A DNA stretch of 64,000 nt, from positions 1 through 64,000 of the forward strand of contig JAIXOR010000001.1 of NCBI GenBank assembly GCA_027486655.1, in the 5' to 3' direction. The DNA is from Verrucomicrobiaceae bacterium (GTDB lineage Bacteria; Verrucomicrobiota; Verrucomicrobiia; Verrucomicrobiales; Akkermansiaceae). Shown here one piece after another: positions 29,035-44,209 of the stretch. How positions within the stretch are numbered: the stretch's first letter is position 1; each line of letters opens with the position of its first letter. The notes under the pieces are model-generated. The model worked only from the letters and a program-made list of their open reading frames with translations, ran no database searches and was not told the origin of the DNA. The position numbers were made by a program, and so were the translations under genes.

Positions 29035-29402
29035 GAAAGTCGCGGCAATTACGCAGGCCCCACCCTGCATCGATCAGCCGCGTCGCGCAAATGCACAAGT
29101 GGGTGACCGGGAGTTGGCCGAAGTGGCTAAAAGTACACTGGGCTCTCGGAATGCTGAATCGGCGTACACCGGGATTGGAAATGGCTCAAATTTGAACAAA
29201 AATGATCCCGATTTCTTCAAAAATCTGCGAGATTCCACGGGGATTAGCCCGAATTCATGCCCCTTATTTCTGATAGATGGGCATGCAATACATTGAATAT
29301 AAGCATTTTAAAATTTTACTTCAAATCATCGAATTTATTCTTGCGGTTTGAGTGTATCTCAGTGTACTTTCCGAACACTGACGCGATCGTCAGCACCTTC
29401 CC
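29035..29402. promoter_or_regulatory. AT-rich divergent control region upstream of mraZ
   Basis: This 368-base gap between the divergent PSCyt1 gene and mraZ is clearly richer in A and T than the rest of the window, notably 29155-29350. It contains a perfect 11-base inverted repeat, AAAGTACACTG at 29130-29140 and CAGTGTACTTT at 29360-29370. The right copy is also part of a short dyad, CAGTGT ... ACACTG, at 29360-29380. I see no convincing -35/-10 pair and no clear array of MraZ boxes (spaced TGGGN repeats). The region must hold the main dcw promoter; the exact position is not determined. Confidence 0.55.
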
Positions 29403-29855
29403 GTGAGCAATCCTCAACAGCGCCACAAGGGTTTTCACCCCTACAAGATGGACCCGAAGTTTCGGGTTTCCGTCCCGACGGGTTGGCGTCCGGAAGCGGG
29501 GGGATCCCTGTTCCTGCTCTATTCCAAAGAGCACGACATGCCGGTGGTGAAGGTGCTCAGCCAGGCTGCATTCGATGAGAAGGTGGACCTGATCAACGCC
29601 AGCAACCTTTCCCCGGCCGACAAGAACCGCACGCTCGGCAAGCTCTCGATGCTGTGCCGCGAGGTGGGCCTCAACGAGCAGGGCAAGCTTCTTGTTCCCA
29701 AGGACCTCAGCGAGAAGGCCGGCATCCAGGCGGACTCGGACGTGGTCCTCGCCGGCCGCGGCATCCACTTCGAGATCTGGAGCAAGGCCAACTTTGAGAA
29801 ACTCCTCGAGATCGAGACCTCGCAGGATGTCGAAGACGATCTCGGCATTTTCTAA
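29403..29855 (+). CDS. mraZ: MraZ, transcriptional regulator of the dcw cluster
   Basis: 150 residues made of two SpoVT/AbrB-like swapped-hairpin repeats. The first has the pattern HPYKMDPKFRVSVPTGWRP, the second LNEQGKLLVPKDLSEKAGI followed by VVLAGRGIHFEIWSKANFE. MraZ binds DNA upstream of its own operon and usually represses the dcw cluster. The start is a GTG following TTCCC, without a clear Shine-Dalgarno motif. It is the first gene of the cluster, but about 940 bases of structured repeats separate it from rsmH, where most genomes have almost no gap. Confidence 0.93.
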   Translation: MSNPQQRHKGFHPYKMDPKFRVSVPTGWRPEAGGSLFLLYSKEHDMPVVKVLSQAAFDEKVDLINASNLSPADKNRTLGKLSMLCREVGLNEQGKLLVPKDLSEKAGIQADSDVVLAGRGIHFEIWSKANFEKLLEIETSQDVEDDLGIF

Positions 29856-29901
29856 CCACTCACCCGTCACACACCCAACAGCAGCAATGTTGTTCACCCC
29901 A

Positions 29902-29972
29902 CCCATTCCGGCACTTGGAACGGTCCGCACCCCGGCGGCCGAGTCCGCCTTCGTTCCAGTGCCGGAATTGGG
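29902..29972. repeat. long inverted repeat at the head of the hairpin array
   Basis: CCCATTCCGGCACTTGGAAC at 29902-29921 is complementary, apart from two one-base slips, to GTTCCAGTGCCGGAATTGGG at 29953-29972. The 31-base loop is GC-rich and contains a GGTCCGC...GGCGG..GTCCGCC sequence like the stems of the following array. The folded arm could terminate or pause transcription after mraZ, or be the outermost member of the array. Confidence 0.75.
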
Positions 29973-29985
29973 ACTCCTTTCCTAC

Positions 29986-30802
29986 GGACCAGCGACTCCT
30001 CTCGGGACAGAGCGTCGCAGGTCCCTCCTTACGGATGTCCGCCCCGCTTCTGGCTGGTTGTCGGGGCGGCGTCCGCTGGCTTTCATGGCTGGGCGTTTGA
30101 AGTCTCTCGGGACAGAACTTCAATCGTCACTCAACACGATGGTCCGCGCGGCTTCTGGCTGGTTGTCCGCGCGGCCATCCGAGATTTTCATGGCAAATCG
30201 GAATGGCGCGCTCGGGACAGCACGCCCTTCCGGCACTTCGGACGTCCGCTCCGCTCCTGGCTGGTTGTCGGGGCGGCGTCCGGTCTCTTTCATGGCTGGG
30301 CGTTTGGAGTCTCTCGGGACAGAACTCCAATCGTCACTCAACACGATGGTTCGCGCGGCTTCTGGCTGGTTGTCCGCGCGGCCATCCGAGATTTTCATGG
30401 CAAATCGGAATGGTGCGCTCGGGACAGCACGCCCTTCCGGCACTTCGGACGTCCGCTCCGCTTCTGGCTGGTTGCCGGGGCGGCGTCCGGTCTCTTTCAT
30501 GGCAAACGGAAACGTCGGGCTCGGGACAGCCGGTCGTTTCCTCCTTACGGATGTCCGCTCCGCTCCTGGCTGGTTGTCGGAGCGGCGTCCGCCGGTTTTC
30601 ATGGCTGGGCGCGGAAGCCCTATCGGGATTGGGCTTCTTCCGCGACTTGAAACGATGGTCCGCGCTGCTTCGGGTGTGTTGTCAGCGCGGCCATCCAGGT
30701 TTTCACATCACAGTCAGCCCCCCGCGCTCGGGACAGTGCGGCGGGTCGACGATCCCACGGGTACCCGCGCCGCTTCTGGCTGGTTGTCGGCGCGGGTGCC
30801 CG
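29986..30802. repeat. tandem array of eight two-hairpin units between mraZ and rsmH
   Basis: Eight units with a period of 105,102,105,102,102,105,105 bases. Each has hairpin A with a CTCGGGACAG loop (29986-30024, 30097-30123, 30200-30231, 30304-30330, 30407-30438, 30508-30541, 30611-30643, 30721-30745) and hairpin B with the 15-base loop CTTCTGGCTGGTTGT (30033-30074, 30138-30179, 30239-30282, 30345-30386, 30446-30489, 30548-30591, 30654-30695, 30758-30802). B stems have 8 upper pairs, a bulged T and 5-6 lower pairs. Stem bases change in pairs while loops stay fixed: TTGAAGT/ACTTCAA against TTGGAGT/ACTCCAA; CCGCGCGG/CCGCGCGG against CCGCGCTG/CAGCGCGG; CCGCCCCG/CGGGGCGG against CCGCTCCG/CGGAGCGG. 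Units 2-3 and 4-5 are nearly identical, a recent ~207-base duplication; unit 7 has degenerate loops. A TTTTCATGGC block separates units. Confidence 0.9.
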
Positions 30803-31755
30803 CCGATTTTTCCGTTTCCACACCGGATGGCGGCTATCATGTCTCGGTCTTCCCGGCGGAGACCCTTGAGTGGATGGACGCCCGTGAGGGTCGCTTCATC
30901 ATCGATGGAACGCTGGGTGGAGGCGGCCACAGCGAGCTGTTCCTCAAGGCCGGCGCACGGGTTCTCGGTGTCGACCGCGATCCGGAGGCCCTCGCGCACG
31001 CGCGCGTAAGGCTGGCGCCCTTCGGCGATCGATTCACCACCTGGCAAGGCAACTTCGCCGATCTCCATGAAAGCCCCGAAATCCGGCAGGGGGAGCGGGC
31101 CGATGGCCTGCTGCTGGATCTCGGGGTGTCTTCCCGGCAACTTGACAGCGCCGAGCGCGGCTTCTCGTTCATGCGCGAGGGACCGCTCGACATGCGGATG
31201 GGTCCTGCAAGTCGCCACAGCGCCGCGGACATCGTGAATGCTTGGGACGAAGCGGACCTCGCGCGGATCCTCTTCCAACTCGGAGAGGAACCCAAGGCTC
31301 GCCGGATCGCCGCCGCCATCGTGAAACAACGCGCATCGCGTCCATTCACCACCACCCTTCAGCTGGCATCCTGCATCGAAGCCGCGGTCGGCCGCCACGG
31401 CCGGACCCACCCGGCGACCCGCTCGTTTCAGGCGATCCGCATGGCGGCCAACGAGGAACTCGAGTCGCTCGCCGCAGCCCTTGCCGCCGCGCCTGCCGTC
31501 CTCAAGCCCGGTGGGCACCTCCTGATCATCACCTTCCACAGCCTTGAAGACCGCATGGTCAAACGCCACCTGCGGCATCACTCGGCCCCCTTCATCGACG
31601 ATCCGGGATGGCCCGAACCCAAGCCGAATCCCGACTATCAGTTCGAGCTTCTTTCCCGCAAGGCCATCCTGCCGACCGACGGTGAAATCACCCTGAACCC
31701 CCGGGCCCGCAGTGCGAAACTGCGGGTCGCACGCCTTTTGGAACCCGCGCCATGA
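30796..31755 (+). CDS. rsmH: 16S rRNA (cytosine1402-N4)-methyltransferase
   Basis: 319 residues from the GTG used here. The family core starts at GGYHVSVFPAETLEWM, then FIIDGTLGGGGHSELFL with the SAM-binding glycines, VDRDPEAL, LLLDLGVSSRQLD, ERGFSFMREGPLDMRM and near the end ITFHSLEDRMVKRHL. It methylates C1402 of 16S rRNA. No ATG lies between the repeat array and the conserved N-terminus; GTG 30796 or TTG 30784 give the normal length, whereas the nearest in-frame ATG (30655) adds 47 residues encoded by the repeats. The frame is open through the whole array. The GTG sits in the right arm of the last hairpin. Confidence 0.9.
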   Translation: MPADFSVSTPDGGYHVSVFPAETLEWMDAREGRFIIDGTLGGGGHSELFLKAGARVLGVDRDPEALAHARVRLAPFGDRFTTWQGNFADLHESPEIRQGERADGLLLDLGVSSRQLDSAERGFSFMREGPLDMRMGPASRHSAADIVNAWDEADLARILFQLGEEPKARRIAAAIVKQRASRPFTTTLQLASCIEAAVGRHGRTHPATRSFQAIRMAANEELESLAAALAAAPAVLKPGGHLLIITFHSLEDRMVKRHLRHHSAPFIDDPGWPEPKPNPDYQFELLSRKAILPTDGEITLNPRARSAKLRVARLLEPAP

Positions 31756-41584: not shown

Positions 41585-44209
41585 ATGAAAATCCATCCAT
41601 CCGTACTCCTGGCCTGTGCCACCTCCCTGGTCGGAACTTCCTCGCTTCTTGCCCAGTCCACCTGGACCGGTCTCGGCACGGCCGAGACTCCCGCCCTCTG
41701 GTCCGGCTCCTCCAATTGGACCGGCACCGCGCCCACAAGCGGCGGCAGCTCCGCCCTCATCTTCCTGAATGCCGCGGGCAACTCGGTTTCCTCCAACGAT
41801 CTCACCGGATTCACCGCAACCTCGATCAGCATCCCGGCCAACGACGGGGCCAGCCCCACACCGGTCAATATCAAGGACAATACCGTCACTGGTAACGCCA
41901 TCACCCTGGCTGGCGGCATCACAGTGGGTACCGGAAACTGGCAGACCTTCAACGTCGACCTCGCCCTCGGTTCGGCGGCCAGGACCATGACCATCAGCAG
42001 CGGCCGCCTCTATCTCGGCGGCGTCCTGTCCGGCACCGGAGCGGCCATCACAAAGTCCGGAGGCGGCGATCTCTGGCTGCTCAATGCCAACAGCTTCACC
42101 GGCAATGGATCCAATGTCGTCAATAGCAGCATCCCCGGTGCCGGAACCTACTCGCAAGGCCTGCTTTTCAGCGGTGGCGGATCGGGCACCGTCGTCATTC
42201 AGAATCCTTCGGCCCTCGGCGCGGCCACCAATTCCATCCGCTTCTCCGCCGGGGGATCGGGGAATCTCAGCCTGCAAACCAATTCCAGCGTCAATGCCTG
42301 GCCGGTCTTCAGCGGCTCCGGAAATGGCGGCACCATCAGCGTCGGAAGACTTACCGCAGGTGCGGGCATCACCCATACCCTTGGAGTGCTCGATCTCAGC
42401 AGTGTGACCATGACTCTCAATACCGGTGCCAACGTCACCAGCGGCATCGCGGGGGTTTCATTCAGAGCGCTCAGCATGTCCGGAGGAAATGATAACAGTC
42501 CGGTCACTCTCGCAGGCACGGCCGCCATCAGCGTCGGTTCCGCGGGCATCACGAACAATACCAACCTCACACGACGCCTCCAGCTCGATGGCACCAACGC
42601 CAATAACACCATGGGCCTGATCTCCGATCTGGCTCCCGGCGCTGCTTCCGGGACCGCCAAGGTCAATTTGATCAAGGCCAATACGAGCACCTGGACTCTC
42701 ACCGCCAACAACTCGTTCACTGGCACCACCACGATCAACGCCGGCGTGCTCCAACTCGGCAACGGCGGCACCAACGGATCCCTGTCCCCATCGAGTGTCC
42801 TTACCAATAACGGCACGCTCGCATTCAACCGCTCGAACACCATCACCCAGGGCACGGACTTTGCCTCGGTGATCTCCGGAGCCGGATCCTTGCGGAAATC
42901 CGGGACGGGCAACCTCATCCTCAACGCGGAAAATCTGAGCGGCGGTGTCGCTCGCGAAGTGCTCACGTTCAGCGGCGCGAATGCCGGCACCGTCACCCTC
43001 ACCCACACCGCGGCACTCGGCGCGGCTGGCAATGCCATCCGCTTCAGCGGTGGCGGTTCGGGAGTTGTGGATCTCCAGACAGACAACAGCGTCAATGCCT
43101 ACTCTTTCGTCAGCGGCACCGGGAACGGCGGCACGCTTCTTGCCAACCGCGCCACTCCGGACACCACCATCACCCACACCCTCGGAGCACTCGATCTCAG
43201 CAGCGTGACCCTCACCGTCAACACGGGTGGCAACGTCACCGGAACCGCTGCCGTGTCATTCACCGAACTCCGCATGAACGGCGGAAATGATAACAACCCG
43301 GTCACCCTCGCCGGAAACGCGGACATCAGCATCGATTCCGCATCCATCACCGCCAACGGAATCCCCAAACGCCTGCGCCTCGCCGGCACCAGCGCCAACA
43401 ACGTGGTCAACGGAGTGATCACAGACTCTGCCAATGCAACCTCGGGAGCCAAGGTCAGCCTGATCAAATCGGACGCCTCCATCTGGCACCTCAAGGGAAA
43501 CAACACCTACACCGGAGACACCAGCGTCGTCGGTGGCAGACTGAAGGTCGATTTCCCCTGTCTGGACGATTCGGCCGCGCTTTCCATCGACGGCGTCCTC
43601 GAACTCAACCACAGCAGCATCGATGTCGTCGGTTCCCTCACGCTGGGAGGAATCGTCAAGGGGCCCGGTGAATACGATCAGTCCAACAGCGCTGGCTACA
43701 TCGAAGGCACCGGCAAGATCAAGGTGCTGCCCTCCAGCGCCTTCGACTCCTGGGCATCCCAAAAAATCACCGCCATCAATCCGCTTGCCGATGCCACACC
43801 CGCCGGGGATCCGGATGCGGATGGCACCAACAACCTCGCCGAGTTTGCCTTCAACGGCAATCCGCTCAGCGGTTCGGACAACGGCATCGTCGCCGTGAAG
43901 ACCGAAGATAGCACCGATGTCGGCACCGAACAGGAACTGATCCTCACCGTGGCGGTGAGAAAGACCGTCCCGGCGGCTCCCTCCTTCTCAGGAACTCCTC
44001 TGGAACTCAGCGTCGCGGGCATCACCTACACCATCGAGGGCAGTATGGACCTCTCCAACTTCAACGCGCCCGTCGCCGAGGTGGCTCCCGTCACCTCCGG
44101 CCTGCCGGACCTCAGTGCGAATCCCGATTACGAATACCGCAGCTTCAGCCTCACGGGTTCAAACGGCCTCGCCGGAAAAGGTTTCCTCCGTGCCAAGGTC
44201 CGGAACTAA
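41585..44209 (+). CDS. secreted passenger-repeat (PATR) surface protein with AEFAF-type C-terminal domain
   Basis: 874 residues. A signal peptide ending LLAQS (about 1-24) precedes a beta-helix rich in S, T, G and N. A ~230-residue module occurs twice (about 155-370 and 400-640), each with GGGSGxVxLQxxxSVNA, THTLGxLDLSSVTxTxNxG, GGNDNxPVTLAG, RLxLxGTxANN and a closing NNxxTGxT PATR motif. The last ~150 residues hold DPDADGTNNLAEFAFNGNPL and a final YEYRSF...RAKVR part also found in the GH30 protein nearby. No autotransporter barrel is visible. Likely role: surface adhesion or substrate binding. Confidence 0.85.
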   Translation: MKIHPSVLLACATSLVGTSSLLAQSTWTGLGTAETPALWSGSSNWTGTAPTSGGSSALIFLNAAGNSVSSNDLTGFTATSISIPANDGASPTPVNIKDNTVTGNAITLAGGITVGTGNWQTFNVDLALGSAARTMTISSGRLYLGGVLSGTGAAITKSGGGDLWLLNANSFTGNGSNVVNSSIPGAGTYSQGLLFSGGGSGTVVIQNPSALGAATNSIRFSAGGSGNLSLQTNSSVNAWPVFSGSGNGGTISVGRLTAGAGITHTLGVLDLSSVTMTLNTGANVTSGIAGVSFRALSMSGGNDNSPVTLAGTAAISVGSAGITNNTNLTRRLQLDGTNANNTMGLISDLAPGAASGTAKVNLIKANTSTWTLTANNSFTGTTTINAGVLQLGNGGTNGSLSPSSVLTNNGTLAFNRSNTITQGTDFASVISGAGSLRKSGTGNLILNAENLSGGVAREVLTFSGANAGTVTLTHTAALGAAGNAIRFSGGGSGVVDLQTDNSVNAYSFVSGTGNGGTLLANRATPDTTITHTLGALDLSSVTLTVNTGGNVTGTAAVSFTELRMNGGNDNNPVTLAGNADISIDSASITANGIPKRLRLAGTSANNVVNGVITDSANATSGAKVSLIKSDASIWHLKGNNTYTGDTSVVGGRLKVDFPCLDDSAALSIDGVLELNHSSIDVVGSLTLGGIVKGPGEYDQSNSAGYIEGTGKIKVLPSSAFDSWASQKITAINPLADATPAGDPDADGTNNLAEFAFNGNPLSGSDNGIVAVKTEDSTDVGTEQELILTVAVRKTVPAAPSFSGTPLELSVAGITYTIEGSMDLSNFNAPVAEVAPVTSGLPDLSANPDYEYRSFSLTGSNGLAGKGFLRAKVRN

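Follow-up and report, generated by a model that had tools for sequence, protein, structure and literature searches.

A translated array of paired RNA hairpins in the 5' coding part of rsmH in two genera of Akkermansiaceae

What does a long tandem array of paired hairpins do in the division and cell-wall (dcw) cluster of a bacterium, and on which molecule does selection act there? The question is raised by a locus in the window, by which we mean the whole stretch of DNA that was analysed (64,000 nucleotides, positions 1 to 64,000 of contig JAIXOR010000001.1, assembly GCA_027486655.1, from a Verrucomicrobiaceae bacterium of the family Akkermansiaceae). A first-pass annotation, made from the sequence alone, had described here eight units with sixteen hairpins in A-B alternation, and had placed them in the junction between mraZ and rsmH, with a leader RNA and a hairpin-based mobile repeat among the possible roles. 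The hairpins have stood up to further analysis but their placement has not. What lies here is a structured element of the rsmH mRNA that is itself translated, the 5' coding part of the gene forming a head hairpin followed by tandem A/B pairs (probability above 0.9).

Both the number of units and their alternation are recovered by direct-repeat analysis and by a covariance model, R1 (Table 1). The B core recurs in eight copies at spacings of 105, 102, 105, 102, 102, 105 and 105 bases, clean A loops number seven, and all unit lengths (102 or 105 bases) are multiples of three, in frame with rsmH. The loops had been called constant. This is nearly so for A, where CTCGGGACAG is exact in seven of the eight own copies and 30622-30631 reads ATCGGGATTG, but less so for B, where CTTCTGGCTGGTTGT is exact in four copies, one base off in three and diverged at 30668-30682. 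The bulged base of the B stem, said to be a constant T, is T in seven of the eight own copies but only common in the genus, where 85 distinct B hairpins have T in 48 cases, C in 26, G in 8 and A in 3. Two adjacent double units of 207 bp are 95 % identical, which marks a portion of the array as recently duplicated. Directly upstream of the array lies a longer hairpin, the head hairpin, which the first-pass annotation had not mentioned; its stem begins at nucleotide 16 of the rsmH frame. Compared with 20 shuffles each, positions 29888-30834 have a folding z-score of -7.4 and the RsmH body one of -0.85; as the minus strand likewise folds well (z -9.7), the score does not indicate the strand. Inspection by eye found no complementarity by which A and B loops could kiss. 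Intrinsic terminators are ruled out as the main role, with three terminator-like sites vs 1.9 expected within 29200-31000.

Table 1. Features of the hairpin array and its surroundings (positions in the window)
Feature	Position	Strand	Basis or remark
mraZ, upstream of rsmH in the dcw cluster	29403..29855	+	Pfam MraZ, E=6.5e-11
rsmH (mraW) ORF including the array, 622 residues	29887..31755	+	open frame; Methyltransf_5 at residues 318-616
Head hairpin	29902..29971; arms 29902-29917 and 29956-29971	+	covariation across five genera (32 chosen sequences)
Array of eight A-B units	29977-30802	+	covariance model R1 and covariation
Units 1-4	29977-30076, 30082-30181, 30187-30283, 30289-30388	+	model R1
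Units 5-8	30394-30490, 30496-30592, 30598-30697, 30703-30802	+	model R1
First A loop, CTCGGGACAG	30001..30010	+	C-G and T-A pairs close the hexaloop CGGGAC
Other A loops	30106, 30211, 30313, 30418, 30520, 30727; diverged: 30622	+	
First B loop, CTTCTGGCTGGTTGT	30047..30061	+	
Other B loops	30152, 30254, 30359, 30461, 30563, 30773; diverged: 30668	+	
RsmH methyltransferase domain, opening with YHVSVFPAETL	30835..31755	+	

The mraZ-rsmH junction is indeed tight, but the array lies beyond it, inside the rsmH ORF. The frame of the RsmH core stays open across the array up to an ATG at 29887, 31 nt past the mraZ stop, and on the sequence this ATG is the likely start of rsmH. In a separate collection of 29 loci with both mraZ and rsmH, the first in-frame ATG lies 24-42 nt past the mraZ stop in every case, and 22 of the 29 open with MLF. 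The frame was followed through 30 loci, comprising the source genome and 29 relatives of its genus. A and B hairpin matches precede the RsmH core in all of them, and the gap from the mraZ stop to the core measures 386-979 nt in the 27 loci with mraZ. Over 5316 codons of this gap (the three loci without mraZ being counted from the contig end) stops number 6 in the rsmH frame, as compared with 87 and 88 in the other two forward frames. Of the six, two lie ahead of the ATG (L018, L034) and four belong to L014, a locus with a shifted frame from a genome that is 84 % complete. Three of 95 B hairpins are out of frame, two of them in L031; the breaks in L014 and L031 reflect either sequencing errors in draft genomes or a start site that differs there. 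In ten loci of a second genus the rsmH frame contains 1 stop vs 17 and 28.

An intergenic leader is rejected, since the rsmH frame is open and kept through the array. With this frame and an ATG so close behind mraZ, RsmH is most simply made with a 316-residue N-terminal extension encoded by the array region, and rsmH probably begins 948 bases further upstream than homology to the catalytic domain suggests. A start-site assumption can hide an element such as this one. The proposed leader RNA is still plausible as a role, but it would be translated.

The extension (residues 1-316) is predicted to be disordered, the ten-residue blocks of the AlphaFold model having a pLDDT of 25-39 as far as residue 310 and, from residue 321 on, one above 70 in 23 of 31 blocks; the structure alignment (A3) consisted of the window protein and 24 of 29 listed proteins. 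No Pfam family reaches its cut-off in residues 1-316. In other families of the order (L151-L170), RsmH seems to be extended in frame at its N-terminus by tens of residues in many of 20 genomes, from putative start sites. Downstream of rsmH in the window, Pfam identifies a transpeptidase, three Mur ligases, an mraY-like glycosyltransferase and an FtsW/RodA protein, gene names within the dcw cluster (e.g., ftsI for the transpeptidase) being presumed from gene order. After the FtsW/RodA gene, at 41585-44209 on the plus strand, a protein with autotransporter-type PATR repeats is encoded.

An insertion confined to a single strain, a prospect raised by the first-pass annotation, is contradicted by the search of relatives with the covariance model. 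At E <= 0.001, R1 matches the 5.33-Mb source genome eight times, always within the array. Across the family 88 of 260 genomes carry units, namely 71 of 73 in the source genus (the two genomes without a match being 70 % and 79 % complete) and 17 of 18 in genus g22 (the miss is 72 % complete), with no match in 14 other genera among these 260 genomes. Of 288 genomes sampled from the order 39 were matched, in 2 of 50 genera; given the stricter search filters used, weak relatives may be missed. Matches per genome range from 1 to 8, the source genome having the most, and low counts can reflect contig ends.

The site has been kept as well, a point that the first-pass annotation had proposed to check. 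The repeat peptide, searched against 84,980 species genomes, matched at 32 loci, each of which has mraZ or rsmH next to it: both genes are present at 29 of them, and mraZ only at three, which lie at contig ends. Their deposited labels are Luteolibacter, Akkermansiaceae, Verrucomicrobia(ceae), Akkermansia or Prosthecobacter. The sole named type strain, Luteolibacter pohnpeiensis (L052), is presumed to be a member of the source genus because the identities of its RsmH and MraZ equal those of G028 from that genus. Among ten g22 loci taken by RsmH, the array lies between mraZ and the RsmH core in nine, and the tenth begins at a contig end; the in-frame plan is the same in this genus, and GGGAC and GGCTGGTT are kept. 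The flanks of R1 matches were examined in a minority of carrier genomes. Single-contig carriers have one cluster each, with all matches listed in five of the six and three of four in the sixth. Loop B, allowing up to 2 mismatches, occurs elsewhere 6 times vs 13 for a reversed control.

Other palindromes were seen in the mraZ-rsmH gap of further genomes. Genus g31 (L113, L114) has two A-like hairpins with the loop AAGGGACG, of which the L113 hairpin reads GGCGGG-T-GGAGGAGC AAGGGACG GCTCCTCTCCCGCC, in frame with rsmH, and a close pair of A-like sites is present in 6 of 10 genomes of this genus. REP-like palindromes around GGGATGACTT are found in two copies in L125 and in one copy in L128.

Conservation of an array within a coding sequence can be due to the RNA, to the peptide or to both. 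The co-varying stems noticed in the own array have their counterpart in homologues. Of 90 A-B units, those that were >93 % identical at equal length or ran off a contig start were removed, which left 71 units from 27 of the 30 loci, five of them from the own array; R1 was built from these 71 as well. At 15 pairs, 93.6 % of the cells are paired vs 77.0 % when shuffled, and 193 cells carry double changes vs 65.6 in shuffles; these counts are inflated by relatedness and by repeat types within arrays, and tests resting on the coding frame were therefore used. Units slid out of register have just 34–52 % of their cells paired.

The -2/+2 pair of the B hairpin consists of third codon bases, which in 42 of 91 in-frame copies belong to an Ala GCN and a Ser TCN codon. 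All 42 are paired (CG 18, TA 15, GC 7, AT 1 and TG 1) and all changes among them are synonymous. In a codon-reshuffle null, the peptides of 82 distinct in-frame B hairpins from 30 loci were retained and encoded with random synonymous codons of RsmH bodies in 1000 trials. Pairing in the B stem is 88.1 % as observed, compared with a null mean of 60.7 % and a null maximum of 63.7 %, and third-third pairs are paired in 92.7 % vs 37.1 % (maximum 46.7 %).

The loops are restricted in their codons too. The Leu of loop B is TTG in 88 of 88 copies, a codon that serves 13.5 % of the 890 Leu residues counted in RsmH bodies (another residue occupies the position in 4 of 92 copies), and the Gly of loop A is GGG in 81 of 81, as against 16.1 % of 706 Gly codons, although loop constancy is partly by choice because units were picked by loop similarity. 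Loop A survives moves of the frame, being read as LGT or PGT in 81 of 93 copies and in other frames in 12, for instance as SGQ. For CGGGAC hexamers in the gaps, whose neighbours were unselected, the inner pair is formed in 96 of 97 and the outer pair in 96 of 97; downstream of the gaps both neighbour pairs are formed in none of 12. A check of 100 B matches found five to be false (TGGCTGGG), none of which is in the A-B units or the in-frame sets.

Seven chosen species pairs were compared: in the extension the synonymous difference, uncorrected, is 2.1-4.6 times below that in the RsmH body and dN/dS is 0.26-0.73 vs 0.05-0.11, so that the peptide is loosely and the RNA tightly constrained; some selection on the extension peptide may exist, dN/dS being <1 in all seven. 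Over 14 stem pairs, with the invariant pair 25-34 left out, there are 52 G-U vs 14 A-C combinations, which favours the sense strand, i.e., the mRNA. Selection on the array is thus mainly at the RNA level, over and above the encoded peptide. The earlier claim of selection on a folded strand is sustained by the covariation, the synonymous pair changes and the codon-reshuffle null; peptide-only selection is rejected by the loop codons together with the latter two.

The head hairpin can be followed further. In 32 chosen sequences of five genera, 92.6 % of the cells in its stem are paired vs 79.9 %, with 74 double changes vs 19.4, the structure having been taken from RNAalifold on the same sequences that were later scored. 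These 32 come from 40 listed sequences, of which L018, L027, L028, L029, L034, L036, L116 and L119 were left out as diverged or of another fold; L014 (frame broken) and the loci lacking mraZ had been omitted from the listing beforehand, and the other genera offered 18 loci, five listed and three used. The head hairpin seems to be older than the array. Folding z-scores are -2.5 to -7.6 in 27 of 27 loci with mraZ and -2.4 to +0.4 in eight RsmH-body controls, so the weakest array loci nearly touch the controls. Strong folding is not special to the array: short rsmH leaders elsewhere reach z -3 to -6 (L113-L115, L118, L119, L121, L122, L125 and L130), and others are not well folded (L116, L120, L123, L124 and L126-L129).

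Loops that stay fixed while the stems vary are typical of binding sites for trans-acting factors, from which we infer a factor that binds the loops, and the position of the array, where the rsmH message begins, suggests that the translation of rsmH and the genes behind it are controlled. We prefer, with a probability of roughly 0.5, to read the array as a cis-regulatory RNA that is itself translated and that tunes rsmH and dcw expression through a trans-acting factor bound to its loops. The A and B loops, on nascent or free mRNA, would be putative sites for an RNA-binding protein acting in trans, and their several copies would give avidity for it. Together with the head hairpin near the start codon, the array would set the translation of rsmH, and this level would pass on to the division and cell-wall genes further along. 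Translation would be held back by bound factor or by hairpins left intact; ribosomes reading through would melt the hairpins, and the RsmH they produce would carry a disordered, probably dispensable tail. A copy number of 1-8 per genome is odd for a precise switch, and the kept frame requires only that RsmH be made. We know of no agreed reason why ribosome modification and cell-wall/division genes share the dcw cluster; an array maintained over two genera would provide a link between ribosome modification and the expression of these genes that can be tested.

A more speculative and rather unlikely elaboration takes the array for a dual-coded, multi-site RNA device, in which the first 300 rsmH codons would be read both by ribosomes and by the loop-binding factor, with feedback between ribosome maturation (RsmH) and the division/cell-wall operon. 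In a bolder form, the reader of the loops would be a domesticated hairpin-binding, RAYT-like protein, and an N-terminal stretch of RsmH in genus g18 would be its trace in a sister lineage.

Proteins of the IS200/RAYT type are HUH-type proteins that bind hairpins. In g18, probably Akkermansia, two loci (L126 and L127, genomes G059 and G068) have RsmH apparently joined in frame to an N-terminal stretch of ~200 residues with an NHVHV motif and weak similarity to IS200/RAYT proteins. The rsmH frame begins 9 nt past mraZ in these two genomes, with an in-frame ATG at 844, and no hairpin array was found at either locus. The stretch scores 18 bits against Pfam Y1_Tnp (E=0.0032, cut-off 23) and likewise far below the curated cut-offs in NCBIfam; it is 21 % identical over 127 residues to a RAYT of the source genome (E 6e-6 in a single comparison), and a PDB sequence search returned one chance-level match (E 0.96). 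Such similarities suggest that hairpin-binding proteins and the 5' site of rsmH have met before. In the source genome, five contigs (C3, C45, C65, C79 and C80) have a Y1_Tnp fragment <=200 bases from their start, which suggests a multi-copy IS200/RAYT element that breaks the assembly.

Can the array be explained without a loop-binding factor? Ribosome-sensing autoregulation would need no dedicated binding protein, as early stem-loops would tie rsmH translation to the RsmH mark on the 30S decoding site. A 2026 preprint (PMC13317604) reports that B. subtilis requires MraW to translate transcripts with early stem-loops efficiently, and the rsmH locus offers a conserved stem from nucleotide 16 of the frame and a 5' part that folds far better than shuffles. 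However, the stems would thereby be explained and the fixed loops CGGGAC and GGCTGGTT left unexplained; most of the array lies far past the first codons and the sign would be that of positive feedback, so that we consider this account unlikely.

Nor do we put much weight on a selfish or passive palindromic coding repeat of the RPE or PARCEL kind, which would have entered in frame at a tolerant, disordered N-terminus and multiplied there through unequal crossing-over; this account appears distinctly unlikely. The array does have the expected looks, being in frame, palindromic and tandem, with a predicted disordered product, a variable copy number and a recent 207-bp duplication. Dispersed copies are lacking, however: the eight R1 matches of the source genome are all in the array, single-contig carriers have one cluster, and the 32 loci from 84,980 species genomes all adjoin mraZ or rsmH. 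The hairpin-based mobile repeat of the first-pass annotation founders on the same matches. Moreover, fixed loops and compensated stems in two genera require purifying selection on the RNA.

We give little credence to the idea that the repeat peptide (e.g., LGTE...RAASGWLSARP) functions as protein and that the hairpins are a by-product. It would account for the 16 of 57 columns that are invariant in 13 chosen repeats and for a dN/dS below 1 in all seven pairs, but not for constrained synonymous codons or for a loop A that is kept in other frames, and residues 1-316 are those predicted to be disordered and matched by no Pfam family at its cut-off. Very improbable, finally, is an ssDNA element whose hairpins are REP/BIME-like DNA sites for an HUH/RAYT-type nuclease: paired bulged hairpins resemble BIMEs and the g18 stretch is weakly Y1_Tnp/RAYT-like, below cut-off, but here the loops are fixed rather than the stems, the locus is single, 0 of the 15 Y1_Tnp matches of the genome are on the array contig, and the G-U excess favours one strand, though ssDNA of that strand would match.

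How does the translated cis-regulatory RNA proposed here compare with known systems? Our searches of the open-licence literature yielded no description of a class in which conserved RNA hairpins form long tandem arrays within coding sequence, and nothing on an RNA or repeat at rsmH in this phylum. The mraW RNA motif is a cis-regulatory RNA before mraW in Actinobacteria. It resembles the array as a structured RNA at the same gene and differs from it in that it belongs to another phylum, whereas the array RNA is translated and tandem. Rfam, including the mraW motif, gave 0 matches at gathering threshold in the window, the best score in 29856-30850 being that of a microRNA model (23.7 vs a threshold of 54 bits); a known Rfam RNA is thus rejected, in line with the first-pass annotation, which knew of no family with these two loops. 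REP/BIME elements are high-copy, extragenic alternating palindromes associated with RAYT transposases. Alternating palindromes and bulged stems are common to both, but the array is one intragenic locus on a contig without RAYT, and neither the loop-B search nor R1 reveals numerous intergenic copies.

Rickettsia palindromic elements (RPE) and the coding palindromes of Wolbachia and Methanocaldococcus are in-frame and translated in housekeeping genes (PMC10969869, PMC2996958). The array is likewise an in-frame palindrome inside a protein-coding gene, rsmH. In contrast to RPEs, which are dispersed among many genes, it was found at a single site, where it is tandem and combines two nearly fixed loops with compensated stems; R1 detected no dispersed copies in unrelated genes of the source genome (8/8 in the array). 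PARCEL repeats share with the array tandem, variable-number, translated repeats with DNA dyad symmetry, and consist of a 25-residue amphipathic motif spread among taxa, often in membrane proteins (PMC2996958). The array has instead a period of 34/35 codons, a product predicted to be disordered and a conservation that is mainly that of RNA, and the PARCEL family DUF285 has no Pfam match in residues 1-316. The MraW-dependent B. subtilis mRNAs cmpA and isp carry a small stem around the start codon (PMC13317604). A stem-loop in the first codons and the involvement of RsmH/MraW are common to these mRNAs and to the locus described here, which has a head hairpin and, inside rsmH itself, an array with conserved loops.
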